Assembly: GCA_030828385.1 (NCBI GenBank)
Contig: JAURCS010000013.1
Location: forward strand, 1 to 64,000
Reading direction: 5' to 3'
Length of the DNA stretch: 64,000 nucleotides
From: Gammaproteobacteria bacterium
GTDB lineage: Bacteria; Pseudomonadota; Gammaproteobacteria; Pseudomonadales; Pseudohongiellaceae
Shown here: in pieces, positions 996 to 41,170 of the stretch
Position numbering within the stretch: position 1 is the stretch's first letter
Layout: each line of letters opens with the position of its first letter
Position numbers and translations under genes: made by a program
Notes under the pieces: model-generated
Told to the model about the DNA's origin: nothing
The model's database searches: none
The model's input: only the letters and a program-made list of their open reading frames with translations

Positions 996-1820
996 GTGAC
1001 AGGTTCTTCCCTATCTCCCGCTGATGTCAGCAGAATTGCCTTGGGCATTGAATACAATGGGAGTTGTTTCAATGGCTATCAGGCGCAAAAAAATGACAGC
1101 GTTATAACGATTCAGGAATCACTCGAATCAGCGCTGAGTGAAGTAGCCAATCACCCGGTGACCTTGCATTGCGCTGGACGCACCGATGCCGGTGTACATG
1201 CCACCGGGCAGGTTGTACATTTTGACGCGCAATTTGACAGGCCCGAAAGTGCCTGGGTCAGGGGCGCTAATGCCATATTGCCGCCAACTATCTCGATTTG
1301 CTGGTCCAGACAGGTAAGTTCTGACTTTCATGCCCGCTTTAGTGCTACCTCAAGATGTTATCGTTACATCTTTTACAACAATAAAGTGAAACCGGCGATT
1401 CTCAGTAATCTGGTCACCCATCATTACCGTACACTTGATGAGAAAGCCATGCATGAAGCTGCACAGTTGCTGTTGGGTGAAAATGACTTTACCTCGTTTC
1501 GCGGTGCTGCATGCCAATCCTCTACTCCAATGAGAAATATGATGCAATTGTCGGTAACCCGGCAAGGAGACTTTGTGATCATGGAAGTAACGGCGAATGC
1601 CTTTTTACTGCACATGGTGAGAAATATAGCAGGTGTTCTGCAGGCGATTGGCGCCGGCATGAAACCGGTTGAGTGGGCTGCCGAGGTGCTGGCAAGCAAG
1701 GACAGAAAGCTGGCCGGGGTTACTGCTCATGCCGATGGTCTATACCTGGTGAAAGTGACTTATCCAGAGCATTTTGGATTACCGGAACCTGCGCCTGGCC
1801 CGGCATTTCTGCGCTTTTGA
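996..1820 (+). CDS. truA: tRNA pseudouridine(38-40) synthase TruA
   Basis: This enzyme isomerises U38, U39 and U40 in tRNA anticodon arms. The 274-residue product is of normal family length. It carries the TruA catalytic segment GRTDAGVHATGQV, whose Asp is the nucleophile, and the conserved downstream segments FRYRY-like (SRCYRYIFYN) and HMVRNIAG. The start used is GTG, 21 bases after the fimV stop, which gives MTGSSLSP followed by the expected first beta strand (RIALGIEYNG). It sits between fimV and trpF, the usual pseudomonad-type order. Confidence 0.95.
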   Translation: MTGSSLSPADVSRIALGIEYNGSCFNGYQAQKNDSVITIQESLESALSEVANHPVTLHCAGRTDAGVHATGQVVHFDAQFDRPESAWVRGANAILPPTISICWSRQVSSDFHARFSATSRCYRYIFYNNKVKPAILSNLVTHHYRTLDEKAMHEAAQLLLGENDFTSFRGAACQSSTPMRNMMQLSVTRQGDFVIMEVTANAFLLHMVRNIAGVLQAIGAGMKPVEWAAEVLASKDRKLAGVTAHADGLYLVKVTYPEHFGLPEPAPGPAFLRF

Positions 1821-2051
1821 AAGTGACAAGAAAAGCCCGACTAATAGGGGGCTGGATATAGGCTTAACGGCGGTGCTTTGGTAGAATCAGCCTCGTTTTA
1901 TCCTTTTGGCTTACATCGATTCAGTCTTTGCCATTTAGCGCAGGTTTAAGCTCAATCAATCAGGAGAATGTCAGAAGGCCGCGTGACATCTACCGGTGCT
2001 GGCGGCCTGATTTGGCTTTTTGTTATGCAGAAAAAACGGGCAAACAGCCAT

Positions 2052-2681
2052 ATGCTGGTGAAATTCTGTGGTATTACGCGTGCCTGTGATGCGGTCTCGG
2101 CTTTAAGGGTCGGCGCTAATGCCCTGGGTATGGTGTTTTTTAACGGCAGCCCTCGTTTTGTTGGCGCTGAGCAGGCGGCAGAAATAAGTCAGGTTGTCGA
2201 TGACAGCGGGGCCAGTCAAAGGGTATTGAAGGTAGGCCTTTTTGTTGATGCGGCCACCGGAATGGTCCAAGAGGTACTCGATCAGGTGCCTTTGGATATT
2301 CTGCAATTTCATGGCAATGAACCAGCGCCATTTTGCGAACAATTCGGCCTCCCGTACTGGAAAGCTTTACGAGTCAGGAATGTCGGTGATATTGAAGATT
2401 TTATTCCAGCCTATACATCAGCTGCTGCCTTATTACTGGATGCCTGGCACCCAGACCAGCATGGCGGTACCGGCTTGTCATTTGACTGGGAATTGCTAGC
2501 CGGCATTAACCCGGATCAAAACATTGTGCTGGCTGGTGGTTTGACCCCGACTAATGTTGCTCAAGCCATCAGACAAGTGTCCCCCTGGGGCGTTGATGTG
2601 AGCAGTGGAATTGAAGAAGCACCCGGAATCAAATCAGAAAGTCTTATGAAGCAATTTATAGAAGAGGTTAGAAGTGTCTGA
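2052..2681 (+). CDS. trpF: phosphoribosylanthranilate isomerase TrpF
   Basis: TrpF catalyses the Amadori rearrangement of phosphoribosylanthranilate in tryptophan synthesis. The hallmark start VKFCGITR, the loop LQFHGNE and the C-terminal [10 protein letters not shown] and GVDVSSGIE phosphate-binding segments are all present. Starting at ATG 2052 gives 209 residues, the family length. The frame is open upstream with ATGs at 1968 and 2025; the one at 1968 has AGGAG only one base before it, and both add a non-conserved leader. The 3' end overlaps trpB by eight bases, so the two are probably translationally coupled. Confidence 0.93.
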
Positions 2682-3894
2682 ATCAAAAGTATTACATGGT
2701 GAATATAACAGTCCTGACGAACATGGACATTTTGGTCCTTATGGCGGGATTTTTGTCGGTGAAACCCTGATGCCGGCGCTCGATGAACTGAACAGGAAAT
2801 ATGCCGAACTAAAAGCGGATCCGGCTTTCTGGGCAGAATTTGATTATGACCTCAAACATTATGTAGGCAGACCATCACCGCTTTATTTTGCTGAGCGTCT
2901 AACCAACAAACTTGGTGGGGCAAGAGTATTTCTGAAACGTGAAGACCTTAACCATACCGGCGCTCACAAGGTGAACAATACTATTGGTCAGGCATTGCTG
3001 GCCAAAGCCATGGGCAAGACCCGCATTATTGCAGAAACCGGTGCCGGTCAACACGGTGTTGCATCAGCCACAGTTGCAGCTCGACTGGGACTTGAATGTC
3101 ATGTGTATATGGGCGTTGAGGATATCAAGCGCCAGTCGGCCAACGTTTACCGCATGAAGATGCTGGGCGCGAATGTAGTAGGGGTGGATTCAGGTTCATG
3201 CACCCTCAAGGATGCCATGAATGAAGCGCTTCGGGATTGGGCGACCAACGTGGACAACACTTACTACATTATTGGAACGGTTGCCGGCCCCCATCCTTAT
3301 CCGATGCTGGTACGGGATTTTCAGAGTGTTATCGGACGTGAAGCCCGCGAGCAATGTATTGAATTGACCGGTCGCCTGCCAGATACGCTGGTCGCCTGTG
3401 TTGGCGGTGGCTCTAATGCCATTGGCCTGTTTTATCCCTTTATTCCCGACGAGTCAGTGGCAATGGTCGGCGTAGAGGCAGGTGGTCATGGTCTGGAGAC
3501 CGGGGAACATGCGGCGCCGCTATGCACCGGTCAGCCGGGAGTACTGCATGGCAATCGCACTTACCTGATGAATGATGAAAATGGTCAGATTCTTGATACA
3601 CATTCTATTTCTGCCGGCCTTGATTATCCGGGTGTTGGGCCTGAACATTCCTGGCTCAAGGATTTACACCGTGCTACCTATACTTCGGTAACTGATGATG
3701 AAACTCTGGAAGCCTTTAGAATGCTAACGCGGGTAGAAGGGATTATTCCTGCTCTTGAAACCAGTCATGCCATTGCCTGGGTGATGAAAGAAGCCCCCAA
3801 GCTGCCCAGCGATCATATTATTATTGTGAACCTGTCAGGCAGGGGCGACAAAGATATGCATACTGTTGCTGAAATTGAAGGTATGACACTGTAG
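2674..3894 (+). CDS. trpB: tryptophan synthase beta chain
   Basis: TrpB condenses indole with serine, using pyridoxal phosphate, in the alpha2-beta2 tryptophan synthase complex. The 406-residue protein has the PLP lysine in GAHKVNNT (Lys99), the GAGQHGVA segment and the glycine-rich phosphate cradle GGGSNAIG. The start is GTG inside the end of trpF, followed by [12 protein letters not shown]. With trpF before it and trpA after it, this forms a trpFBA block placed between truA and accD; in Pseudomonas itself trpBA lies elsewhere. Confidence 0.97.
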
Positions 3895-29836: not shown

Positions 29837-29874
29837 TTTTTTATTGTGCAAAATCCTATCTGCTGTATTCCTAG

Positions 29875-30090
29875 GATTTTAATTCCCTGCCCGGGTATGC
29901 CAGGGATTATGTTTATGCACGGCTCGCGGCTTATCTGGTAGGGCGCAAACTCTATCCTGGTCGACAAGCCTTTAGCGACAGCGAACGCGATCAGGCGCTT
30001 TAAATTCTGCTTGTCACCCTGTCAGGCTTTGCCGACTATACTGATATCATTTCTGCGCCTGAGCTGATATCGAATACGCCTGTTTTCTAA
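29875..30090 (+). pseudogene. unidentified coding remnant in a 585-base gene-poor stretch
   Basis: The stretch 29774-30358 has no intact gene. In one frame it reads as protein-like sequence (YARLAAYLVGRKLYPGRQAF, then SDSERDQAL), is stopped by TAA at 30001-30003, and continues in the same frame as ILLVTLSGFADYTDII before ending at 30088. The composition resembles the C-terminal end of a real protein with one nonsense change, but I do not recognise the family. From 30091 to 30358 only AT-rich sequence, which should carry the promoter of the next operon, is seen. Confidence 0.25.
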
Positions 30091-30358
30091 TAATCCTGAT
30101 TTCACTTACCTGGCGTTATTTACCCGACGTAATTTGCCTAGGCCGTTTTTTTTGCAGGACTGGTCTCGTTAATCATATTTAACCTTACCACCTGAAAGTT
30201 TTGCCAATGATTGAGGAGAAACTGATCCACTTTCCCTGTTTGTGCATTTATCAGGTAAATAATTGCAAACCTGATCTGTGATTTAAGCGCGTGTCGAAAA
30301 TAGCACTCTATGCCGCAATGCTTTACCGTTACTGTCGAAAAACGTATTATTGCCCACT

Positions 30359-31015
30359 ATGTCTAATCTCTCCGTCACCCGTGCTGTCAGTGCCCGTATT
30401 CCTACCGAGTACGGGGAATTCGAGCTTGTCTATTACACGAATACCTCCGACAACAAGGCCCACCTTGCCTTTTATATGGGCGACCTCAGTTCAGGAGAGG
30501 ATATTCTGGTTCGACTGCATTCGGAATGTCTTACCGGTGATATCTTCGGCTCTCTTAGGTGCGACTGCGGTGAGCAGCTAGATCGCTCTCTGCAGGTAAT
30601 CGCGGAGGAAGGGTGTGGGGTAGTTGTCTATCTGCGCCAGGAAGGCAGAGGTATTGGTCTGCTGCAAAAAATTCATGCATATAATCTGCAGGATGCCGGG
30701 CATGATACTGTTGATGCCAACCTGCTACTTGGACATCAGGCAGACGAGCGAGATTATACGATAGCTGTTCGCATTCTGGAAAATCTCGGTATAAAGTCGG
30801 TTCGCCTGATCACTAATAACCCTCTGAAAATCAGTGCGCTTGAGGAGCAGGGGATCAAGGTTAACGAGCGCGTTGAGCTTGATAATTTCGTCAACCCTGA
30901 AAACTCCCAGTATTTAACAACCAAGGCCCAACGCATGAACCACCTGCTAAGCCTGACAAATATACCTCCCTCGATAGCCAACAGTGACTCCCATAAACCT
31001 CAATCAGCAGATTGA
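30359..31015 (+). CDS. ribA: GTP cyclohydrolase II, stand-alone, in a specialised cluster
   Basis: The enzyme opens the imidazole ring of GTP to give 2,5-diamino-6-ribosylamino-pyrimidinone phosphate, formate and pyrophosphate. The 218-residue protein has all key residues: zinc ligands Cys57, Cys68 and Cys70 (SECLTGDIFGSLRCDCG), the phosphate loop LRQEGRGIGL, Tyr108 (KIHAY) and Arg131 (DERDY). There is no RibB domain. ATG 30359 is preferred to the TTG nine bases earlier. It overlaps the next gene by 32 bases. It is probably dedicated to this cluster and not to riboflavin, because no other rib genes are present; this is inference. Confidence 0.92.
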   Translation: MSNLSVTRAVSARIPTEYGEFELVYYTNTSDNKAHLAFYMGDLSSGEDILVRLHSECLTGDIFGSLRCDCGEQLDRSLQVIAEEGCGVVVYLRQEGRGIGLLQKIHAYNLQDAGHDTVDANLLLGHQADERDYTIAVRILENLGIKSVRLITNNPLKISALEEQGIKVNERVELDNFVNPENSQYLTTKAQRMNHLLSLTNIPPSIANSDSHKPQSAD

Positions 31016-31748
31016 AGAGTGGCTGCATTCACGTGCCACTACTTTCCAAGCTGACAACAGACCTTTCATAACGCTCTCCTACGCGCAAAGCTGGGACGGC
31101 AGTATTACTACCCGCAGTGGCGAAGTCATTAATTTTAGTGGCGAGCAGGCCATGAGTCTGACGCATCAGCTGCGTAGTCTTCATGATGGAATTTTGGTTG
31201 GCATTGGTACAGTGCTCAGTGATGATCCGCAGCTGACAGTCAGGCAGTGGACTGGTTTAAACCCGCAACCAATTGTGCTGGATAGTCAATTACGCACGCC
31301 AAAGTCCGCGAGGATTTGCCATCACCCCGATAAGCAATGCTGGATTTTAACGATCAAACCTGTATCCGCTTCACTGGGAGAGCAGGTTGATATCTTGCCT
31401 ATGCAAGGTACCGACGTAGACCCTCAGCGAGTACCTCTGGTGGCTGCCATGAGTCTGCTGCGTGAGCGTGGTATTAAAACCCTCATGGTTGAGGGCGGTG
31501 CTACAGTAATAACCGCATTCCTGAAGGCGCGTCTGGCTGATGCGCTGGTGTTAACCGTCGCCCCCCGGCTTGTGGGCGGCTATAAGGCGGTAGGGAGTTT
31601 GCAAAGTGAACGCTGTGATGATCAGTTGCGTATCGATCCGCTACATTGTGCATCTGCAGGCAAGGATCTTATCGTGTGGGGGGATTTACAATACGACATG
31701 GCCGATGAGGAGAATGAGGAAAATGGCGAAAATGGAGTAGACCAATGA
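30984..31748 (+). CDS. RibD C-terminal-type (DHFR-fold) pyrimidine reductase without a deaminase domain
   Basis: The 254-residue protein is a single RibD_C domain: FITLSYAQSWDGSITTRSGE, then LRSLHDGILVGIGTVLSDDPQLTVR and LMVEGGATVITAFL. In riboflavin synthesis this domain reduces the ribose side chain to ribityl with NADPH. The zinc deaminase domain of RibD is absent, as in fungal and archaeal reductases, so the 2-amino group would be kept. The start is GTG inside the end of the cyclohydrolase gene. The acidic tail (ADEENEENGENG) is unusual. It overlaps the next gene by four bases. Confidence 0.88.
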   Translation: MTPINLNQQIEEWLHSRATTFQADNRPFITLSYAQSWDGSITTRSGEVINFSGEQAMSLTHQLRSLHDGILVGIGTVLSDDPQLTVRQWTGLNPQPIVLDSQLRTPKSARICHHPDKQCWILTIKPVSASLGEQVDILPMQGTDVDPQRVPLVAAMSLLRERGIKTLMVEGGATVITAFLKARLADALVLTVAPRLVGGYKAVGSLQSERCDDQLRIDPLHCASAGKDLIVWGDLQYDMADEENEENGENGVDQ

Positions 31749-32785
31749 ATGCACATCAGCTCTGGTTCGTCAAACCTCATGAGGTCGAAATACGCGAACA
31801 ACATTTACCAGCGCTGCTAAGCAATGAAGTGCTGGTAAAGAACCTTTATTCGGCGATCAGTGCCGGCACCGAGATGCTGGTCTACCGCGGTCAGCTGCCC
31901 GCTGACATGCCTCTAGATGAAACTCTTGCAGGGCTTGGACAACAAAAGATCAGTTATCCTTTACCCTATGGCTATGCCTGTGTCGGTCAGATAGAAGCGG
32001 CGGGTGATAGCGTTGCCCCTGACTGCGTTGGCAAAACAGTTTTCTCGTTTCAACCCCATGCCAGCCATCACGTTTGCACTATCGACGCCGTTATTCCGGT
32101 ACCGCAGAGAATAGATCCAAAGGAGGCTGTGTTTCTGGCAAACATGGAAACCGCTGTGAATCTGGTACAGGATGGCAATCCGCGAGTCGGTGAACGGGTA
32201 GTAGTGCTGGGACAGGGTATCGTCGGGCTACTGACTTCCAGTGTCCTGGCCCAATTTCCTCTCGCGTGTCTTTACGGCGTAGATGCCATCGCTGGCCGAC
32301 GCAGTTTGTCAGGGCGCTCTGGTGTGCAAGCGACCTTTGATCCTGATTCTGATAACGACATCAAGATGCTTCAGGAGAAACTGAATGTTGGTGAACCATA
32401 CGGCGGCGCGGATGTAGTCTTTGAGTTAAGCGGTTCCCCGGTAGCGTTGAATCTGGCGGTTGATTTATGTGCTTACTCCGGTCGCATCGTCGTTGGTAGC
32501 TGGTACGGTACCAAGAGCGCCGAAATAAATCTGGGCGAGAGATTTCATCGCAACCGCATCACAATCGTTAGCAGTCAGGTCAGTAGTATTGCTCCTGAGC
32601 TTGTTGGACGCTGGGATAAAGCCAGACGTTTCTCTGTGGTATGGGACATGATAAAAACATGCAGGCCTGCGCAGTTTGTTAGTCACACGCTGCCATTTAC
32701 AAAAGCGAGTGAAGCTTACCAGCTGCTGGACCAATCCCCTCGAGACACTACACAGATAATTCTTGATTATCAAAGCCAGTTTTGA
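31745..32785 (+). CDS. medium-chain dehydrogenase/reductase lacking the catalytic zinc motif
   Basis: The 346-residue protein has the MDR layout: a GroES-like part with SAISAGTEMLVYRG and YGYACVGQIEAAG, then a Rossmann domain with VVLGQGIVGLLTSSVLAQ (about residues 154-171) and ADVVFELSGSPVAL. The usual catalytic-zinc signature GHE is replaced by YGYACVG, as in BchC-like and related MDR groups. The substrate is unknown; the position suggests oxidation or reduction of a polyol or sugar side chain of the pyrimidine product. Its ATG overlaps the reductase stop (ATGA). Confidence 0.85.
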   Translation: MNAHQLWFVKPHEVEIREQHLPALLSNEVLVKNLYSAISAGTEMLVYRGQLPADMPLDETLAGLGQQKISYPLPYGYACVGQIEAAGDSVAPDCVGKTVFSFQPHASHHVCTIDAVIPVPQRIDPKEAVFLANMETAVNLVQDGNPRVGERVVVLGQGIVGLLTSSVLAQFPLACLYGVDAIAGRRSLSGRSGVQATFDPDSDNDIKMLQEKLNVGEPYGGADVVFELSGSPVALNLAVDLCAYSGRIVVGSWYGTKSAEINLGERFHRNRITIVSSQVSSIAPELVGRWDKARRFSVVWDMIKTCRPAQFVSHTLPFTKASEAYQLLDQSPRDTTQIILDYQSQF

Positions 32786-32843
32786 TGTTTGCCGTTTTTA
32801 TAACAGTTTTAGAATAAACGTTTTCAGTATAGAGGAATACTAG

Positions 32844-33230
32844 ATGTATACAGTTTCAGTAAGTCGTGAGCTGATTGCCAGGCATTATCTTGTCGGAGGA
32901 GATTGGGGAGCGGAGAACTATCCCCATTCCCATCCTTACAAGATCGAAGTCCGTCTTGAAGCAGCTGATCTGGATCAGCATGGCTATCTTGTGGATATCG
33001 TAAAAATTGAGGAAGAATTTCAGGCCGTTGTCGATTATTTTGGTGAGAGCATGTTAAATGATCTACCTGAATTCGAGGGTCTTAACCCCAGTATTGAACA
33101 TTTCAGTCGCATTGTTTGTGGCAAGTTGCTGGATGGTATTCAGCCGCCGGGTTCGGGCCGCTTCAGCGTGAGAATCTGGGAGAACGACACTTGCTGGGCC
33201 GCTTACGTCACGGATTATAAAGCAGGCTGA
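32844..33230 (+). CDS. 6-pyruvoyl-tetrahydropterin synthase/QueD-fold protein lacking the usual catalytic Cys
   Basis: The 128-residue protein has the three zinc histidines of the family at His14 and His28/His30 (ARHYL, then YPHSHPY), the substrate-loop VDIVKIEEEF, and the acid in RIWENDTCWAAY near residue 113. In QueD and PTPS a catalytic Cys lies just before the HxH pair; here that stretch reads GGDWGAENY with no Cys. The chemistry may therefore differ from known pterin synthases. It ends 14 bases from the convergent membrane-protein gene. Confidence 0.85.
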   Translation: MYTVSVSRELIARHYLVGGDWGAENYPHSHPYKIEVRLEAADLDQHGYLVDIVKIEEEFQAVVDYFGESMLNDLPEFEGLNPSIEHFSRIVCGKLLDGIQPPGSGRFSVRIWENDTCWAAYVTDYKAG

Positions 33231-33244
33231 CAAGACTTAGGCAC

Positions 33245-34276
33245 TCATGACTCCCTAGCTGTAGAGCGGTTATTGGCAGACTGCAGCCCGGGCAAGAGTA
33301 CTGCACCGGTCAATAGAATTATTACGTCACGCAGACGAATCAGCACGATCAAAGCGGCGGCTACCGGCAATGGCAAAGTCAGTGCCTGAAATGCCCAGAA
33401 CAGCCCCGCCTCAACACTGCCAATCCCGCCGGGCAGAGGCAGCAGAAAGGCTAGACGCACCACCGTAAATAGAAACACAAATGTTGCCAGGTCTGTCGGG
33501 ACATCGAGTAGACTAAGCAGGAACCAGAACTCTCCTGTCATTGCGGCCCATGCCAATAATGAAATAGTGAGGGCGACGCCAAGTTTAGGGCGTTGTGTTG
33601 TCATCACCCGTTGCAGTGATTCATTAAGGTGTGTGAGATGGGTATCCAGATTGCCCAGACGTTTGTTGTCATGCCAGCTCTGCGTCAAACGTTTTATCCA
33701 GACCTTAATACGCGATGGCTGACGCAGAACAAACCAGCCAAATAGCCCCATCAGCCCTATCAATCCCAGTAGAACAAATGCGATGAGGTGCCAGTCGACA
33801 AAGGTTGCAGAGCGGGTCGTCAACAAAGTAAGCGCGGCTAATAAAAGTACAGCAAAATTAATCCATAGCTCATAGAATCGATCCAGTCCAAGCGCCAGGA
33901 AGGCACTGTGTATCGGTACAGAATAATTTCGCCATAACCAGTAGATCTGTAGCGGTTCACCACCAAACTGGGGGCCGGGTGTCACAAAACTGATGAGCTG
34001 GCCGGCCTGACGTACCCTTAGAAGCTGCAGGAAGCTGCAAGGCAGTGCCATGGCGCGAGTCAGCACCAGCCAGCGTCCGGTAAGCAGGGCAATGACGAGC
34101 AGGTTGAGACAAGTCCAAACCATCCACTGTGGCAGCTGCAGATTTGAAATAGTCTGTATCAGTTCGGTGAATGGTAGTCTGGACAGTATCCATGTCGCCA
34201 GTGCGAAGGCTATGAACCATGTCATGTAGCGGGACATGAAACCGGCAAAGCGAAAAAAGTCAGTCGAAGCTTTCAA
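33245..34276 (-). CDS. flippase-like membrane protein (lysylphosphatidylglycerol synthase TM region / UPF0104)
   Basis: The 343-residue protein has about eight hydrophobic helices and the family signature near RQAGQLISFVTPGPQFGGEP and the glycine-rich LPLPGGIGSVEAGLFWAF close to the end. It lacks the soluble aminoacyl transferase domain of MprF. Related proteins move lipids or lipid-linked precursors across membranes. Its start overlaps the stop of the CDP-alcohol phosphotransferase gene by four bases, so the two are probably translated together. Confidence 0.87.
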   Translation of the reverse strand: MKASTDFFRFAGFMSRYMTWFIAFALATWILSRLPFTELIQTISNLQLPQWMVWTCLNLLVIALLTGRWLVLTRAMALPCSFLQLLRVRQAGQLISFVTPGPQFGGEPLQIYWLWRNYSVPIHSAFLALGLDRFYELWINFAVLLLAALTLLTTRSATFVDWHLIAFVLLGLIGLMGLFGWFVLRQPSRIKVWIKRLTQSWHDNKRLGNLDTHLTHLNESLQRVMTTQRPKLGVALTISLLAWAAMTGEFWFLLSLLDVPTDLATFVFLFTVVRLAFLLPLPGGIGSVEAGLFWAFQALTLPLPVAAALIVLIRLRDVIILLTGAVLLPGLQSANNRSTARES

Positions 34277-35454
34277 GCGCCGTCGTACCGGTTAAGCCAG
34301 TGATCATCCTCTGCCCACATGCTGAAGCGCCCGGTACCCAGAAGCAGTAACCAGACTACACAGCAAAATAGAACATAGTCCACCGGTAGTAACGGGTTGC
34401 TCATGTAATACCAGCTAAGCAGGCCAACCAGGATGAGGCTGAAGTAGCGCCCAGCAATTCCCAGCAAGAGCATGGCAGATGCCATAATAAAACCGCCGAG
34501 CATGACATTGTTCATCCATGCCAGGCTGTTACCCGTTAGCGGTGGCAGCCCAGATTGAAACAGGGATGTCGCCAGCGTTACCACAATTACCAGACGTAAG
34601 CCTGGTTGAAACAAAGTCAGACTGAATTTAGTTAGACGCTGAAAGATCTTGTCTACGACCTCTGCCTCTCGGTTGATGCGCCCACTGACAATAAGCCAGT
34701 CAATCAAGAACCCCATTAGAGCAGGTAGCATGAAAGCAAAGCCGGCTAGGGTTGTCAGTGGTGGATGAAACAGTGGCCACAGCGCCACGACCAGAAAGCC
34801 CATCTGAAAGCCGGCCCAGGTGCGACGGTGCAATGCTGGCGGCAGGGGGTAGATGGGCAAGCCTTGCCAGTTGCGCCACAATATTCCGGCGTGAAAAAGA
34901 TAATAGGCAATGCCAAACAGCAGGTAACTCAAATGAATTTGGCCATAAGCGAATGCCAGCAAGGAGGCTATTGCCAAGCCAAGCGCATCGGCAACCGTAT
35001 CCAGTTCATTGCCAAGCAGACTGCTTTGTCCTGTGCGGCGCGCAACGTAGCCGTCTACTCGATCCAGCACGGCGGCAAAGAAATAGAGCATGCCAGGTAG
35101 CCACGCCAGTATTGCGCCATCAGACCAGGGCTGAAACAGGAAGCCGGCGACGCTAGCGATCAACCAGGACCGTAACAAGGTGAGCTTGTTAGCCCAGCCA
35201 AGAGTTTTGTAAAGTGGAGCTTCGGGAGTTTCATGATTAATAGGCAAGCGCCGCCTGGTCTGGTAACAGATAAAGCCCCAGACTAACACGGCCTGTATAA
35301 ACCATTGTATTGCCCCTTGCCAAAACCAGCTCAGGCCCAGCAAAACACACTCGCCTGCCAGAGCAGCCATACCCAACCAGCCTAGGCGAGTGGATTCGCG
35401 CTTGAGCGATTCATATACCGCTTGTTGTTTCCCGGGATTTAAAGTGTCTGACAT
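34273..35454 (-). CDS. CDP-alcohol phosphatidyltransferase family membrane protein
   Basis: The polytopic protein of 393 residues has a complete CDP-OH-P active site: DGYVARRTGQSSLLGNELD followed by TVAD, i.e. DG-x2-AR-x8-G-x3-D-x3-D. This family transfers a phospho-alcohol from a CDP-activated donor. A long C-terminal set of helices extends beyond the catalytic core. ATG 35454 (MSDTLNPGKQ) is preferred; the frame reaches 35475, where the REP end begins. The substrate is unknown. Confidence 0.87.
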   Translation of the reverse strand: MSDTLNPGKQQAVYESLKRESTRLGWLGMAALAGECVLLGLSWFWQGAIQWFIQAVLVWGFICYQTRRRLPINHETPEAPLYKTLGWANKLTLLRSWLIASVAGFLFQPWSDGAILAWLPGMLYFFAAVLDRVDGYVARRTGQSSLLGNELDTVADALGLAIASLLAFAYGQIHLSYLLFGIAYYLFHAGILWRNWQGLPIYPLPPALHRRTWAGFQMGFLVVALWPLFHPPLTTLAGFAFMLPALMGFLIDWLIVSGRINREAEVVDKIFQRLTKFSLTLFQPGLRLVIVVTLATSLFQSGLPPLTGNSLAWMNNVMLGGFIMASAMLLLGIAGRYFSLILVGLLSWYYMSNPLLPVDYVLFCCVVWLLLLGTGRFSMWAEDDHWLNRYDGA

Positions 35455-35474
35455 TTGCCAACAATACCAAACCA

Positions 35475-35499
35475 AAGGGGATGGAGGGATTTATTTTTC
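35475..35499. repeat. left REP end of the dead RAYT unit
   Basis: AAGGGGATGGAGGGATTTAT followed by T-rich sequence. Its reverse complement is matched at 36265-36289, on the other side of the transposase remnant. Both resemble one arm of the full palindrome at 38891. Confidence 0.7.
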
Positions 35500-35579
35500 A
35501 TCAGTTTTACGCATTTGTAAAAAAAGTCATCTAGACTTCTAACATCAGTCTCTCACAAAAACCGCATAAGGAAATTCAA

Positions 35580-36294
35580 TGCCCCGTCGAGCCAGAATGA
35601 ATATACCAGGTTAGGCCTGCCATATTGTTCAAGGCGTAAATAATCGGCAAACGCGCTTTTTTGAAGTAGAAATCTATCGTGTATTTTTAAGATACATGGG
35701 CCAATTGCTGCCGCGTTATGAAAACAGTCTCCATGCCTATTGTTTTATGACAAACCATGTGCATTTATTGATTACGCCTGAATGTGTAGGTTTTATTTCC
35801 ACCTTATGAAAGTGGTGTGTAGCCGCTATGCACAATACATAAATAAAAAATATTCTCGTACAGGATCACTCTGAGAATGACCACATAAGGCCAGCGTCAT
35901 TGATTTTGAAAGCTATTTGCTGAAATGCTATCGCTATATTGAACTTAATCGCTAACGGTAGATATGGTAAAGCGCCCCGAAGCATATGTATGGAGCAGTT
36001 ATCATTACAACGCTTGGAGAGGTCAGAATAAGTTGATCTCAGGGCATGAATCCTATTTGGCCCTTGGAAAAAATCAAGCATAGAGATGTTCAAACTACCG
36101 AAAGTTTTTAATGAAACGCTGTCTACTGGAGATTACCAAGCAATTGGAAAGGCATTGCACTTTTCGTTGCCGCTGGGGTCTGAGGAATTTATGAAACAGA
36201 TTGAGAAACGAACAGGTCGAAAGATAGATTATGCGCATCGTGGTAGACCTTGTGCTAAATTGGTAAAAAATAAATCCCTCCGGCTCCTTAAATG
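35580..36294 (+). pseudogene. REP-associated tyrosine transposase (RAYT, Y1_Tnp), decayed
   Basis: Translated with interruptions, the sequence follows the RAYT pattern: MPRRARMNIPG, stop, CHIVQGVNNRQTRFFEVEIY, then HAYCFMTNHVHLLITPE with the HUH metal-binding pair. Later pieces are CYRYIELN, an ENDHIRPASLI stretch, and the tail SLPLGSEEFMKQIEKRTGR followed by KIDYAHRGRP. At least five stops or frameshifts break it, so it is not functional. The last 70 codons (36086-36295) remain open. It has inverted REP ends on both sides and splits a divergent gene pair. Confidence 0.88.
36265..36289. repeat. right REP end of the dead RAYT unit
   Basis: AAAAAATAAATCCCTCC then GGCTCCTT is the inverse of the left end, with three to four mismatches. 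It stops two bases before the ATG of the glycosyltransferase gene, so it occupies that gene's ribosome-binding region. Confidence 0.7.
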
Positions 36295-37332
36295 ATCTAT
36301 TTCGCATACCCTGGTGATCTCGACACCCCAACGGGTGGTTATCATTATGATCGCCGTCTTATTGGTGAGCTTCGCCGTATGGGGGTGAGAGTGGAAACAC
36401 TGGCCTTGCCGGATTGCTCTTGCATGCCCGATCAGCAGACTTTGGTCAGCGTTCAGGAGATATTGGCAGCTATTCCGGATCAGTCTGTGCTTGTGATTGA
36501 TGGCCTGGCGTTCGGGGTTCTTGATCAGTTGGCAATGGCAGAGGCACAGCGACTGCAACTGGTTGCCCTGTGTCATCATCCGCTGGCGCTGGAAACAGGA
36601 CTTGATGCACAAAGTCGTCAGGCTTTGCTGGTTTCAGAGCGCCGGGCTTTGAGTTGTGCTCGTGCAACTGTAGTGACCAGCGAGCATACTCGTCAGATCC
36701 TCATAGAGCACTATGACGTACCCATTGATAAGATCACTGTAGCGCTTCCTGGTACTGATCGAGTTACTTTTGCGCCCTGTGAAGGCGATCCGATCCGACT
36801 GCTCACTGTGGCATCACTGATCCCGCGCAAAGCCCATGACATCCTTATCGATGCGCTTGAGCCGCTTACATCCCTGCCTTGGCAAGCGCGCTTTGTGGGT
36901 GGTGAGGATTTCGATCCTGACTGGGCTGCAAGCTTGCAGGAACAGGTAAACAGCAGTGGTTTGTCGCAGCGAATTGAATTTGCTGGCAGGGTAGCTGATA
37001 CAGGCCTTGAATATCAGCAGGCTGATGTGTTTGTCTTACCCTCGCGATTCGAGGGTTACGGCATGGTATTCGCCGAAGCGCTGGCGGCGGGATTACCGGT
37101 GATCGCGGCGCGATCCGGCGCAGTACCAGACGTCGTGCCTGAAACGGCAGGCATGCTGGTATACCCGAACGATACCAAAGACTTAAGCGAGGCCCTGATG
37201 CAGATTATAAGCAGTGAACCATTACGCCGGCGACTACAATACGGTGCCAGGAAGGCCGCCGCAGCTCTGCCTGACTGGGCAGATACTGCAGTTATTGTTG
37301 CCAGCAAGCTCGATGAGATAAATAACTTATGA
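36292..37332 (+). CDS. glycosyltransferase family 4 (GT-B fold)
   Basis: The 346-residue protein has a GT-B N-terminal half beginning IYFAYPGDLDTPTGGYHYDRRL (donor/acceptor loop with GG) and a Rossmann-type C-terminal half. The latter has ITVALPGTDR, LLTVASLIPRKAHDILIDAL and the retaining GT4 signature FVLPSRFEGYGMVFAEALAA, in which the two Glu residues are spaced as in EX7E. It would transfer a sugar from a nucleotide donor. Its ATG directly follows the REP end of the transposase remnant; no clear ribosome-binding site is seen. It overlaps the next gene by four bases. Confidence 0.9.
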   Translation: MIYFAYPGDLDTPTGGYHYDRRLIGELRRMGVRVETLALPDCSCMPDQQTLVSVQEILAAIPDQSVLVIDGLAFGVLDQLAMAEAQRLQLVALCHHPLALETGLDAQSRQALLVSERRALSCARATVVTSEHTRQILIEHYDVPIDKITVALPGTDRVTFAPCEGDPIRLLTVASLIPRKAHDILIDALEPLTSLPWQARFVGGEDFDPDWAASLQEQVNSSGLSQRIEFAGRVADTGLEYQQADVFVLPSRFEGYGMVFAEALAAGLPVIAARSGAVPDVVPETAGMLVYPNDTKDLSEALMQIISSEPLRRRLQYGARKAAAALPDWADTAVIVASKLDEINNL

Positions 37333-38150
37333 GCGGTTTCAGCATCAACTGGCTGGACTTGCGCGAGGCAGCAGATTGGCGCGCACGCGACGATAAATTG
37401 CTGAAGCAAGCCAGAAAGTGGTTAACCAGCAGTTTTGCTCTGGAAACAGACAAGACCGTGGTGGATTTTGGTGCCGGCACAGGTTCCACGCTGCGTGCTT
37501 TCGCCGACGCTTTAAATACTGATCTACAGGCACTGTGCTGGCGACTGTTGGATCAGGATCCTGGACTGCTTGCAGAGGCTCGTCTTCGTCATGGTCATTC
37601 GCATCGTCTGGAGACTTATGAACTCGATCTCGCAAAGATTTCTGCATTGCCGCTGGCAGACGCACATCTCATTACCGCCTCGGCGTTATTTGACCTGGTC
37701 TCTGCCGTTTTCGTCGATACACTAGTTGTCGCGTTGCAGAGTCAACAACCCCCAGCTGGTTTTTACGCGGCATTAAACTACGATGGCACGACTATCTGGA
37801 CGCCTGCGCATCCTCTTGATGATGTCGTGCTTGAAGCGTTCAATCGAGATCAGCAACGAGACAAGGGATTTGGTGTGGCGCTGGGGCCAGGGGCAGGCTC
37901 TTATCTGGAGCGGGAGTTCAGTGCAGCAGGATTCAAGGTGTTTGTTGCCGCGAGTCCCTGGGTACTGAATGGAGCCGACAGCAAATTAGTAGATGCACTG
38001 ATTAGCGGCATAGCCGACGCGGTCGCTCAAGGCTCGACAATTGACACGGCTTCGCTTCAGGACTGGATTGAATTTAGAAAAGCCAATATAGTTATTGGGA
38101 CTTGTATAGTAGGGCATACTGACCTGTTGGCATTGCCAGATGCGGATTAA
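37329..38150 (+). CDS. class I SAM-dependent methyltransferase
   Basis: The 273-residue protein has the SAM-binding motif I TVVDFGAGTGSTLRAF (about residues 43-58) and an acidic residue in WRLLDQDPG as motif II. ADAHLITASALFDLVS and a C-terminal lid follow. The acceptor is unknown. The ATGA overlap with the glycosyltransferase indicates coupling, so methylation and glycosylation probably act on one product. Confidence 0.87.
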   Translation: MSGFSINWLDLREAADWRARDDKLLKQARKWLTSSFALETDKTVVDFGAGTGSTLRAFADALNTDLQALCWRLLDQDPGLLAEARLRHGHSHRLETYELDLAKISALPLADAHLITASALFDLVSAVFVDTLVVALQSQQPPAGFYAALNYDGTTIWTPAHPLDDVVLEAFNRDQQRDKGFGVALGPGAGSYLEREFSAAGFKVFVAASPWVLNGADSKLVDALISGIADAVAQGSTIDTASLQDWIEFRKANIVIGTCIVGHTDLLALPDAD

Positions 38151-38273
38151 TGCATTCTTAGACCTGAAAAGATTTCTAGGCCCATTTAACCGAGTAGCCG
38201 CACTGTCCTGTTTTTGTTTGCATAATTGACTGTCGCAGCAACACCGATTGATCACTAATTGCCAGGAAGCTCC

Positions 38274-38882
38274 ATGCAGAAATTATACTCAAGTTCATTC
38301 CTATCAAGCGTGGCCCTTTTGCTTTCGATGATGTTACCAACCGGAGTCGCCCAGGCAGAACCGGCCGATTGGAAAATTGATCCCGAACATTTCTCGATTG
38401 CCTTTGAAGCCAGCCATGTTGGTTATCAGAATCAGATGGGTCTGTTTCTCGAGGGCTCCGGGAGCTTCCGCTATGATGCCGCAACCCATGATCTAAGTGC
38501 TGGTCGGGTGGAGATACAGGCAGACAGCATCTTCACCAATCACGATGGCCGTGACAATCACCTCAGTGGAAGAGATTTTTTGAATGCAAGGCGTAACCCG
38601 CTGATTGTCTTTGAAGCGACGGATTATGCCCCTGGGGATGACGATGCAGATGCAACCCTGACTGGCAACCTGACGCTACTGGGTGAAACCCATCCGATTG
38701 TGCTTGATGTCATCATCAACAAACGTGCGGATTATCCTTTCGGACATGGTCGCGAGACGCTTGGAATATCTGCCAATACCACAATCACCCGCAGTGACTG
38801 GGGTATGGACTACGGTGTGGCTGATAACCTTGTTGGAGATGAGGTAACACTGCGTTTCGAGCTTGAAGCGATAAGGCAGTAA
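38274..38882 (+). CDS. YceI family periplasmic protein
   Basis: The protein has a signal peptide ending in GVAQA (about residue 28), then a YceI lipocalin-like barrel starting WKIDPEHFSIAFEASHVG and ending WGMDYGVADNLVGDEVTLRFELEA. YceI proteins bind polyisoprenoids or other amphiphiles. ATG 38274 has AGGAAG seven bases upstream. It may belong with the lipid-linked cluster before it, or be independent; the gap is 123 bases. A perfect REP palindrome follows. Confidence 0.92.
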   Translation: MQKLYSSSFLSSVALLLSMMLPTGVAQAEPADWKIDPEHFSIAFEASHVGYQNQMGLFLEGSGSFRYDAATHDLSAGRVEIQADSIFTNHDGRDNHLSGRDFLNARRNPLIVFEATDYAPGDDDADATLTGNLTLLGETHPIVLDVIINKRADYPFGHGRETLGISANTTITRSDWGMDYGVADNLVGDEVTLRFELEAIRQ

Positions 38883-38890
38883 TAAATAAA

Positions 38891-38927
38891 GGGGACGTAG
38901 GGATTTATTTTTAATCCCTACGTCCCC
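38891..38927. repeat. perfect REP palindrome
   Basis: GGGGACGTAGGGATT (38891-38905) and its exact complement AATCCCTACGTCCCC (38913-38927) face each other across seven AT bases. It is the best-preserved of four related sites here (29798, 35475, 36265). It starts eight bases after the YceI stop and may also protect or end the mRNA. Confidence 0.85.
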
Positions 38928-39019
38928 ATGTAGGGCTGGTTTCCTCGTCCAAGCCTACTTATACTTATCTGCATAATTACATCAATCTGAACATTAATCA
39001 TTTGAACAGGGCTCTTCTA

Positions 39020-40903
39020 ATGTCGTCGACATCCCGTTTTTTAACCTCACCTGTATTCATCGCACTGGCTTACCTGTTGCCGGTATCGCTTCTCTACGCA
39101 CAGGAGCCAGTGGTCAGCACTGATATCAATGCTGCGGGCATGGCAATCTATGAAGAAACCTGTTCCTCCTGCCATGACATGCCGGTGGAAACCAAATCGC
39201 CACCCATTGATACCCTCAAGCGTATGGGACCACGTGCGGTACGTTATGCCCTGACCAATGGCAAGATGAAAGTACAGGCAGCTGCACTGAGTGAGAACGA
39301 TATAGATAATGTGGTGGCTTATCTGTCAGCTACCGCCGACGTTGATAACAGCTGGATTAGCGACAACATTTGCCCAGCCGAGCGCATGGATGTGGATACC
39401 GGCGAGCCTACCATCTGGACCCAGGGCTTTGATCGCATGAATCACCGCAATCTTACTGCTGAGCAGGCCGGCCTGACTACCAGTGATATGGGTAATCTGA
39501 AACTGGCGTGGTCCATGGGGTTTCCGTCCACGGCGAATATGCGTTCCCAGCCAGCCATTGTCGGTAACACCATGTATTTCCCCATTGTGGATTCCGGTCA
39601 ATTGTTTGCACTGGATATTGGCGGTGATGCTCCCTGTGTCAAATGGGTTTACGAACATGATATTCCCCTGCGTACCACCATCGGCTATCACACCCTTAAA
39701 GACGGGCGTCCGGTCCTAGTTTTCGCAGACAACTCAGCCCATACCCTGTTAATGGACGCCATCACCGCGGAAGTGATCTGGGATGTCAGCGTACAGGTCA
39801 CCAGTGTATCCAATGTCACTGCCATGCCGGTGCTTTATGGCGATCGTGTCTATGTGGCGATTTCCTCCGGTGAACTGAATATGGGCGCGGCGCCGGATTA
39901 TGAATGCTGTACCAGTCATGGCGCCGTAGTGGCGCTGGATCTGGCGACCGGAGCCCGTGAATGGGTCTATCACACCATGGAAGATGCCAAACCGACCACG
40001 GTCAGCCGTGTTGGCACTCAGCAATACGGGCCCAGTGGCGCACCGATCTGGACCGCACCAGCCGTGGATGAAAAACGTGGCTTGCTTTATGTGGGGACCG
40101 GGGAAAACACCTCGGCACCGCCCACCGATACCAGTGATGCGATTCTGGCACTGCGTCTTGAAGACGGCTCACTGGCATGGAAATTTCAGGCCACGCCCAA
40201 TGATATTTATCTGACTGGCTGTGACAGAAACCCCGGTGGCCCCAATTGTCCGCCGGCTTACAGCATAAACAAGGATGTGGATTTTGGCGCCGCCATCATG
40301 CTGGCACAGACCCGGGATGGCAGTGATCTGGTTTTGGGCGGTCAGAAAAGTGGCGATGTATGGGCACTGAATCCCGACACCGGTGAACTGGTGTGGAATA
40401 CCAAGATCGGTCCCGGTGGCGCCATGGGCGGCATTCACTGGGGCATGGCCTTTGACGGCGAACGGTTGTTTGCCGGCAACAACCAGAGTACCGGTCAGTC
40501 TGCAGACGGCAATGACCCCGGCTTGTTTGCTCTGGATATCAATAACGGTAGCATGCTCTGGGAATACCATCACACGCCGGATTGCTCAGGTAATCGCCGT
40601 GAGCAATTGCCTAGTTGTGATCGCAGTTGGGGCATGTCAGCCGCGACTATGATTGTCGATGAGGCAGTTGTGCAGGGCACGATGGATGGATTGATCAAGG
40701 TCTTCAGCACTACCAATGGCGAACCCATCTTTGCCTATGACACCGCTCATCCTTTCACCACCATGAATGGTGTGGAGGCGCGGGGTGGCGCAATCGATAA
40801 CTTTTCCGTGTGGGCGGCAAACGGCACATTATTTGTGCAGTCCGGATATGGCCTGTTTGGCATTCCCGGTAATGTACTGTTGGCATTCAAACCCGTCAGA
40901 TAA
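39020..40903 (+). CDS. cytochrome c / PQQ-dependent dehydrogenase fusion (polyvinyl-alcohol-dehydrogenase-like)
   Basis: From ATG 39020 the 627-residue protein has a signal peptide (to about residue 27), then a class I cytochrome c domain with heme motif CSSCH (Cys48, Cys51, His52). A beta-propeller of the PQQ quinoprotein type follows, with repeated W-docking elements such as ALDLATGAREWVYH and ALNPDTGELVWNTK. A Cys-Cys pair is seen in DYECCTSHG, as the vicinal disulfide of PQQ alcohol dehydrogenases. The order cytochrome-then-propeller is that of PVA dehydrogenase. It would oxidise an alcohol in the periplasm; the substrate is unknown. Confidence 0.85.
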   Translation: MSSTSRFLTSPVFIALAYLLPVSLLYAQEPVVSTDINAAGMAIYEETCSSCHDMPVETKSPPIDTLKRMGPRAVRYALTNGKMKVQAAALSENDIDNVVAYLSATADVDNSWISDNICPAERMDVDTGEPTIWTQGFDRMNHRNLTAEQAGLTTSDMGNLKLAWSMGFPSTANMRSQPAIVGNTMYFPIVDSGQLFALDIGGDAPCVKWVYEHDIPLRTTIGYHTLKDGRPVLVFADNSAHTLLMDAITAEVIWDVSVQVTSVSNVTAMPVLYGDRVYVAISSGELNMGAAPDYECCTSHGAVVALDLATGAREWVYHTMEDAKPTTVSRVGTQQYGPSGAPIWTAPAVDEKRGLLYVGTGENTSAPPTDTSDAILALRLEDGSLAWKFQATPNDIYLTGCDRNPGGPNCPPAYSINKDVDFGAAIMLAQTRDGSDLVLGGQKSGDVWALNPDTGELVWNTKIGPGGAMGGIHWGMAFDGERLFAGNNQSTGQSADGNDPGLFALDINNGSMLWEYHHTPDCSGNRREQLPSCDRSWGMSAATMIVDEAVVQGTMDGLIKVFSTTNGEPIFAYDTAHPFTTMNGVEARGGAIDNFSVWAANGTLFVQSGYGLFGIPGNVLLAFKPVR

Positions 40904-40978
40904 AGCTTATTGAAAACTGCTTTACAGTTTCATTGAACGACCGTTGAAACCGGGGATGATACCGATTTCAATGCTTGC

Positions 40979-41128
40979 CTAATCAAAACCCAGATGCTGA
41001 TTCAAGATTGCTGCAAATATCTCATGGGTGGCCAGGATGGGCGCCAGATCACGACCCTCAAATAGATACCCGGCAGACAGTCCCAGCCATTGTGCATGGA
41101 TCCTGCCACCATTAACGGCGCCTTCCAT
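40979..41128 (-). pseudogene. DUF1501 protein, C-terminal remnant
   Basis: On the minus strand the frame EGAVNGGRIHAQWLGLSAG then YLFEGRDLAPILATHEIFAA and ILNQHLGFD ends at TAG 40981-40979. It matches the C-terminal end of DUF1501 secreted proteins (sulfatase-like fold), where a GG-x-W-PGL and a GRDL-x-TTD pattern precede a final LG.D. Only about 49 codons remain; the rest of the gene is gone. Confidence 0.6.
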
Positions 41129-41170
41129 CAGAAAACTCTCATCGGCAGTGCATTTTCAAGCGCAATAGAT

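Follow-up and report, generated by a model that had tools for sequence, protein, structure and literature searches.

An eight-gene unit that probably draws on an early riboflavin intermediate and may lead to a decorated pterin-type compound

We analyzed a 64,000-nucleotide stretch of DNA (the window; positions 1 to 64,000 of contig JAURCS010000013.1, assembly GCA_030828385.1) from a gammaproteobacterium of the family Pseudohongiellaceae. At positions 30359-38150 it carries eight genes, encoding GTP cyclohydrolase II (GCH2), a RibD C-terminal-type reductase, an MDR dehydrogenase, a PTPS-fold protein, a flippase-like membrane protein, a cytidine diphosphate (CDP)-alcohol phosphotransferase, a GT4 glycosyltransferase, and an S-adenosylmethionine (SAM) methyltransferase. 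Our data indicate that these genes almost certainly form one unit with one function and that the pathway very probably starts from a diamino-ribitylamino-pyrimidinone. As the best overall explanation we tentatively propose a dedicated pathway from GTP to a decorated, possibly lipid-linked pterin-type compound.

The eight genes cluster and are gained or lost together

Aligned PTPS-like sequences, used to scan genome contigs, found 461 relatives, and the neighborhoods of the best 80 of these, many of them on short contigs, were searched by tblastn. Because the PTPS-like protein chose the 80 loci, its own count there is given by construction. Near its gene the dehydrogenase was found in 79 of the 80 relatives, the RibD-type reductase in 71, the GT4 enzyme in 67, the flippase-like protein in 64, the CDP-alcohol enzyme in 63, cyclohydrolase II in 59, the methyltransferase in 50, and a YceI-family gene, which also accompanies the unit in the window, in 18. 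All eight genes occur together in 38 of the 80 relatives, always within a span of 6.4-8.7 kb and in five orders or orientations. Among the 41 stretches of at least 20 kb, 26 have the full set of eight, 33 the methyltransferase, and 35 cyclohydrolase II. The inner order of the four-gene core (cyclohydrolase, reductase, dehydrogenase, PTPS-like protein) and of the GT4-methyltransferase pair is fixed in 38/38 complete loci, and it is these blocks that shift position relative to each other. Homologs of the families that the original prediction joined in one pathway are thus clustered, not scattered.

Three of the genes, followed across the family, also come and go together. We scored 100 genomes of the window's family, the window genome (G000) included. 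The PTPS-like gene is present in 56 (59 matched, of which the weak matches in G027, G038, and G081 were scored absent, as were a weak methyltransferase match in G010 and CDP-alcohol matches weaker than ~1e-40; G085, in which the PTPS gene is broken, was scored present). The methyltransferase occurs in 49/56 PTPS-positive versus 1/44 PTPS-negative genomes and the long CDP-alcohol enzyme in 54/56 versus 2/44; the corresponding Fisher values, 2e-19 and 3e-23, are descriptive only, because they are uncorrected for kinship. The two genomes with the CDP-alcohol gene and no PTPS-like gene, G052 and G056, are 73% and 77% complete, and the two with the reverse pattern are G085 and the fragmented G048 (500 contigs). 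Seven PTPS-positive genomes have no close methyltransferase, five of them of one genus (G002, G010, G016, G022, and G028). A chance neighborhood is rejected on the strength of both the clustering in the 80 relatives and the joint presence and absence in the family.

Within the window's own genus the cluster is found in two of seven genomes (G000 and G015), and a close copy of the YceI gene is found in the same two only. Comparison with the sister genome G009 reveals an empty site. Window positions 29854-30052 and 38933-41136 align to positions 970-1169 and 1263-3466 of its locus L139, in which the two flanks lie 93 bases apart, such that 30053-38932, with the eight genes and the YceI gene, is missing as one piece. 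The clean empty site indicates that the whole unit, YceI included, was gained or lost as one block.

The unit recurs on plasmids of distant lineages

Alphaproteobacteria, actinobacteria, and haloarchaea share a smaller core, consisting of the BchC-like dehydrogenase, the PTPS-like protein, and the methyltransferase. Two overlapping plasmid searches matched 12 and 102 records, from which 17 regions were selected by hand, nine from the PTPS-like list and eight from among the highest-ranked dehydrogenase matches. Several of the profiles used include rows from six of these regions (L114-L119); for the methyltransferase profile, such regions account for five of the 15 positives. The dehydrogenase is present in 9/9 regions picked by the PTPS-like protein, and the PTPS-like gene is present in 6/8 regions picked by the dehydrogenase, not being found in L115 and L133. 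Overall, the PTPS-like gene and the methyltransferase were each detected in 15/17 regions; in the 11 regions outside the profiles, each was detected in 10 and the CDP-alcohol gene in 6.

The nine haloarchaeal regions contain the PTPS-like gene in eight cases, the methyltransferase in eight, and the CDP-alcohol gene in five (L116, L126, L127, L128, and L134); L116, L126, and L134 have GT4 genes 4-5 kb off that are distant relatives only. A Microbacterium plasmid carries the window's set minus the cyclohydrolase (CDP-alcohol enzyme, dehydrogenase, PTPS-like protein, GT4, methyltransferase, LPG-synthase-TM protein, and RibD-type reductase). In Thiodictyon the set is complete except for the cyclohydrolase and flippase-like genes, and a cytochrome b561 and a sulfatase-type protein are present in addition. 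Methylosinus trichosporium OB3b carries the core on its plasmid pOB3b1, on which no CDP-alcohol gene was observed. The Streptomyces plasmid region L119 combines the dehydrogenase, PTPS-like protein, GT4, methyltransferase, and CDP-alcohol enzyme with a creatininase-family protein and a cyclohydrolase II that has a methionine in place of a tyrosine discussed below. The Nonomuraea region (L133), which is without annotation, gave no PTPS or methyltransferase match. The flippase profile matched 0/17 regions, missing even the Microbacterium gene that Pfam recognizes, and so is insensitive. L115 carries a flippase of a different family, and an unannotated protein adjoining its dehydrogenase gave no Pfam match.

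The first two enzymes and the starting compound

All eight ORFs of the unit were confirmed by Pfam and NCBIfam profile searches, ORF coordinates and profile matches agreeing with the places and families originally predicted, and the predicted gene overlaps of 32, 4, 4, and 4 bases are exact, the 32-base one joining the GCH2 and reductase genes. GCH2 (30359-31015, forward strand; PF00925, 5.3e-69) scores 261.5 bits against TIGR00505, over the cut-off of 205.85. It is of the Tyr type, with Y108 aligning with the tyrosine of E. coli RibA (2bz0), and tyrosine is found in 52/53 aligned rows, the family alignments having omitted proteins of strongly deviating length. The reductase (30984-31748, forward strand; PF01872, 8.2e-42) has no deaminase domain. 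Pyrimidinone-phosphate reductases from archaea and B. subtilis are among its closest relatives of solved structure, and the window protein scores 119.7 bits against TIGR01508, below the cut-off of 186.45. The column that holds lysine in B. subtilis RibD and in the genome's own RibD has lysine in 0/65 cluster rows, with serine in 41, cysteine in 8, threonine in 7, alanine in 7, and glutamine in 2.

The starting point of the pathway is best supported by the exchange of its first enzyme in other lineages. In 4/9 haloarchaeal regions (L115, L116, L126, and L134) a GTP cyclohydrolase IIa/III, matched by PF05165 in all four, adjoins the dehydrogenase. In the other five no cyclohydrolase is annotated within the stretch viewed; one of these, L128, has a creatininase-family gene nearby. 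In the Streptomyces region a creatininase-family gene accompanies a cyclohydrolase II whose Tyr position is occupied by Met, a change that, as Spoonamore and Bandarian reportedly found, makes cyclohydrolase II stop at the formylated pyrimidine. Archaeal cyclohydrolase III also ends at a formylated pyrimidine, and in Sinorhizobium a creatininase-family enzyme strips the formyl group from the formylated intermediate, according to the accessible portion of the source (PMC9478397). Such non-orthologous exchange of the first enzyme points to one shared intermediate, a diamino-ribosyl(ribityl)amino-pyrimidinone, and lends strong support to the earlier proposal that the product of GCH2 and the reductase is diverted from riboflavin synthesis.

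The PTPS-like protein and the dehydrogenase

The PTPS-like protein (32844-33230, forward strand; PF01242, 1.7e-23) retains three zinc-type histidines, H14, H28, and H30, conserved in 75, 74, and 72 of 75 aligned rows, respectively. Also conserved are E113 (74 rows), which we take to be the ring-binding glutamate of the PTPS fold, and E24 (72 rows), located at the position of the QueD catalytic cysteine. The only exceptions at E24 and H30 are sequences from Palleronia, Methylosinus, and Streptomyces, which read FGPAQ...HGATF. The closest solved structure is that of Streptomyces coelicolor SCO6650 (3d7j), which is said to have a pterin-type pocket but neither zinc nor PTPS activity.

The protein is not a QueD/PTPS-I, since it reads ENYPHSH rather than CxxxHGH and scores 42.6 bits against TIGR03367, where the cut-off is 89.25. 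The folate-type PTPS-III motif, given as ExxHGH in the part of PMC5041015 available, is also lacking, the window protein having E-x-x-x-H-S-H. In place of the PTPS-IV signature FGPAQ, which occurs in 3/75 rows (L117, L118, and L119), the window protein has WGAEN; the PTPS-IV neighborhood of PF00925 and PF01872 is present, in the genes at 30359-31748. With the zinc-type histidines kept, the window group is best seen, from its sequence motifs, as a sister variant of PTPS-IV that has retained the metal ligands.

The dehydrogenase (31745-32785, forward strand; PF00107, 8.3e-10) has no zinc ligands as judged by eye from the alignment, in agreement with the original prediction. Its nearest NCBIfam model is TIGR01202 (bchC; 1.2e-18), against which its 67.3 bits fall far below the cut-off of 291.25, such that it is BchC-like rather than BchC.

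A proposed pathway and the evidence against it

The enzymes suggest the following scheme. GCH2 is expected to make 2,5-diamino-6-ribosylamino-pyrimidinone 5'-phosphate, and the deaminase-free reductase, as its family suggests, to convert the ribosyl to a ribityl chain; the 2-amino group would be retained because the unit has no deaminase. The BchC-like dehydrogenase could then oxidize the ribityl 2'-hydroxyl to a ketone, giving an open-chain keto-amine, the 1-amino-1-deoxy-ribulose form, to which the Amadori rearrangement of GTP cyclohydrolase I also leads. Closure of the 5-amino group onto this ketone would yield a 7,8-dihydropterin with a phosphorylated trihydroxypropyl chain, of the dihydroneopterin type. 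This route is chemistry that we infer from known reactions, and we regard the ring closure as plausible rather than probable. A dihydroneopterin-type phosphate would suit a PTPS-fold enzyme with a ring-binding glutamate, and the PTPS-like protein may grip the 2-amino-4-oxo ring by that residue and rework or cleave the side chain.

Decoration would fall to the GT4 enzyme (36292-37332, forward strand; PF00534, 3.2e-30) and the class I SAM methyltransferase (37329-38150, forward strand), the latter with a weak, under-cut-off match to Methyltransf_12 (8e-5) and no NCBIfam match. The long CDP-alcohol phosphotransferase (34273-35475, reverse strand; PF01066, 3.8e-15) and the LPG-synthase-TM/flippase-like protein (33245-34276, reverse strand; PF03706, 1e-30; TIGR00374 over cut-off) might link the product to a phospholipid and expose it in the periplasm, where YceI, or the sulfatase-type protein in other lineages, might handle it. 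Lipid linkage is a close call that we lean slightly against. These later steps, that is, ring chemistry, methylation, glycosylation, lipid coupling, and translocation, appear compatible with the gene families and their co-occurrence. The boldest form of the proposal, a GTP cyclohydrolase I-independent pterin that is glycosylated, methylated, anchored to a phospholipid, flipped to the periplasmic face, and shared by bacteria and haloarchaea, must be called speculative and quite unlikely. Were it true, the membrane-bound pterin could be a redox or light-absorbing cofactor, or an exit route for pterins from the cytoplasm.

Several observations weigh against the proposed pathway. The PTPS-like protein has no counterpart of the cysteine of PTPS and QueD, and its alphaproteobacterial/Streptomyces branch is also without the third histidine. 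Zinc-less MDR enzymes often use C=C bonds or quinones, not alcohols. GTP cyclohydrolase I (FolE) is present in 98/100 family genomes, so a second route to plain dihydroneopterin looks wasteful; the compound actually made may have another configuration or an intact ribityl-nitrogen bond. In the 11 plasmid regions outside the profiles the reductase was found in 3 and cyclohydrolase II in 0, and the surroundings of the haloarchaeal cores gave no LPG-TM-type match with a profile that also missed the Microbacterium gene. The Streptomyces creatininase-family protein falls under every NCBIfam cut-off, the best model being the mycofactocin peptidase (141 versus 172 bits), with 37 bits for ArfB. Finally, the core and the CDP-alcohol gene lie on separate contigs in several drafts, which may reflect assembly breaks.

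Alternative explanations

An alternative that we judge unlikely has the same start but leaves the ribityl-nitrogen bond intact. The dehydrogenase and PTPS-like protein would then act elsewhere on the chain, and the pathway would yield either an N-ribityl pyrimidine or, as a 2-amino counterpart of lumazine or flavin, an 8-ribityl-pteridine. This reading uses the same first two enzymes and would explain why GTP cyclohydrolase I, though present, is not used. However, a second ring needs a carbon unit, and family searches of the unit found no riboflavin deaminase, RibB, RibH, or RibE, leaving no RibB/RibH-type donor enzyme among its genes.

The lipid and glycan genes might instead serve a separate envelope function, for example, periplasmic glucan decoration, and merely share the locus. 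Companions of that kind do occur. opgH lies near the core in 10/80 relatives, as well as in Methylosinus and Neorhizobium, and opgG in 9/80; MdoG is found in 17/56 cluster-positive versus 2/44 cluster-negative family genomes. A sulfatase-type membrane protein lies near the cluster in 29/80 relatives (between L060 and L113) and in Thiodictyon, its gene adjoining the methyltransferase gene in many loci. PF00884 matches the copy in L080, which has no NCBIfam match, and matches L131:13855-15711 slightly under cut-off. Yet the window genome keeps the unit with YceI but no MdoG and, in a search without a positive control, no detected sulfatase-type partner, which indicates that MdoG and the sulfatase are lineage-specific; glucan decoration as a general function was set aside because MdoG is absent there. 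Moreover, the CDP-alcohol gene tracks the core across the family, and in Microbacterium and a haloarchaeon the core is again accompanied by GT4, methyltransferase, and CDP-alcohol genes. Taken together, these data make a separate envelope function improbable for the lipid and glycan genes. Cytochrome b561-type genes were also seen near the cluster, in L061, L064, L066, L068, L080, L084, L087, L103, and L131 (11506-12063), and were Pfam-checked in L061 and L131; together with YceI in other lineages they recall the E. coli yceI-yceJ pairing.

We consider it very improbable that the unit is a spare or regulated supply of riboflavin or folate, although GCH2 and RibD-type proteins are riboflavin families and the PTPS-like protein has Glu for Cys as in PTPS-III. 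The window genome has a separate set of riboflavin genes, for which the original prediction had advised a search: contig C76 carries an operon in which a ribD that includes the deaminase domain is joined by a RibE-type (lumazine-binding) gene and by ribBA, and C32 carries a further cyclohydrolase II gene. That the unit holds the organism's only riboflavin genes is therefore rejected. The genome also has an intact FolE on C108 and, on C95, a QueD with the CxxxHGH motif (CARLHGH), and the unit offers neither the remaining riboflavin enzymes nor the ExxHGH motif. We also reject the idea that the unit stands in for GTP cyclohydrolase I in folate synthesis, given the near-universal FolE of the family. 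A second GTP cyclohydrolase I-like copy in the window genome (G000:C59:3057-3584) has three in-frame stops, and second copies without stops were seen in G009, G015, and G033.

Cofactor F420 requires a deaminated uracil. A role of the unit in F420 synthesis, where PTPS-IV is said to act on the basis of unpublished work cited in the accessible part of PMC5041015, is scarcely credible and was rejected, there being no CofH over cut-off in the window genome and no association between CofH and the cluster in 40 family genomes (cluster in 8/14 CofH-positive and 18/26 CofH-negative genomes; Fisher p 0.50). Frames of 817-1048 amino acids in which a full match to CofH is joined by a second, weaker match are patchily distributed among the same genomes (14/40; G005, G013, G016, G022, G025, G030, G035, G039, and six cluster-negative genomes); they are perhaps CofG-CofH fusions of the F420 pathway.

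Other features of the locus

The 0.8-kb gap between the CDP-alcohol and GT4 genes, which separates two gene pairs, is filled by a decayed IS200-like transposase remnant (35476-36291; PF01797, Y1_Tnp, 2.6e-6 on 35615-35806) with interruptions in all six frames. The YceI-family gene (38259-38882, forward strand; PF04264, 4.3e-38) starts 108 bases past the methyltransferase and lies inside the mobile unit. Beyond the unit, a PQQ-type beta-propeller protein with a cytochrome domain (39002-40903) is present in 7/7 genomes of the genus, with several paralogs each. In locus L142 of genome G033 the TopA/mechanosensitive-channel flank directly adjoins the PQQ-type gene, and thus the siderophore-interacting and Rid genes are also not at that place. 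A structured RNA was rejected, since the window has no Rfam match over the gathering score, as was an anti-phage system, for which the sole match was the methyltransferase at 2e-4.

Comparison with known systems

The closest precedent in print is AGeNNT cluster-node 62, reported in 2017, which comprises 561 PTPS-IV sequences with the FGPAQ signature in a neighborhood with PF00925 and PF01872 (PMC5445326, accessible part). The window resembles it in those two families, and its Methylosinus, Palleronia, and Streptomyces relatives carry FGPAQ. Partners of the dehydrogenase, GT4, methyltransferase, or CDP-alcohol type are not named in the accessible part of that study, nor is a product or pathway proposed there, and PF00925 is labeled FolE2 (PMC5445326). 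The original prediction that no characterized pathway has this gene set thus holds in that our literature search, which took in little of the subscription literature, recognized no paper describing the whole set, but the association of PTPS-IV with PF00925 and PF01872 is not new (PMC5445326, same portion). SCO6650 (3d7j) and SCO6655 of Streptomyces coelicolor are similar to the window system through the closest solved structure and the related plasmid region L119; unlike the window protein, the SCO6650 branch has HGATF and has lost the third histidine.

OpgB-type periplasmic glucan decoration shares the CDP-alcohol, flippase-like, and sulfatase-type genes, which stand beside opgGH in some relatives, but the window genome is without opgG (MdoG), and we know of no role of the core genes in glucan decoration. 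Cyanobacterial pterin glycosides are made via GTP cyclohydrolase I and PTPS-II, whose CxxxxxHGH motif is absent from the window PTPS-like protein. Cyanopterin and other such glycosides, as described in the accessible part of a 2026 review, are glycosylated bacterial pterins too (PMC13259868). According to the same part of the review, pterin efflux systems have yet to be identified (PMC13259868); if our proposal is true, the unit might bear on the membrane passage of pterin-type compounds. It would also define, down to the first intermediate, the gene set for a common metabolite of marine, methane-oxidizing, soil, and hypersaline microbes, and would give a real role to cluster genes now labeled "6-carboxytetrahydropterin synthase," "zinc-binding alcohol dehydrogenase," and "RibD family protein."

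Riboflavin synthesis also feeds the branches leading to toxoflavin, roseoflavin, and F420 (FO). None of these branches is known to us to include PTPS-like proteins, BchC-like dehydrogenases, or CDP-alcohol enzymes. We rate the unit described here as a probable diversion branch of riboflavin synthesis akin to these known branches.

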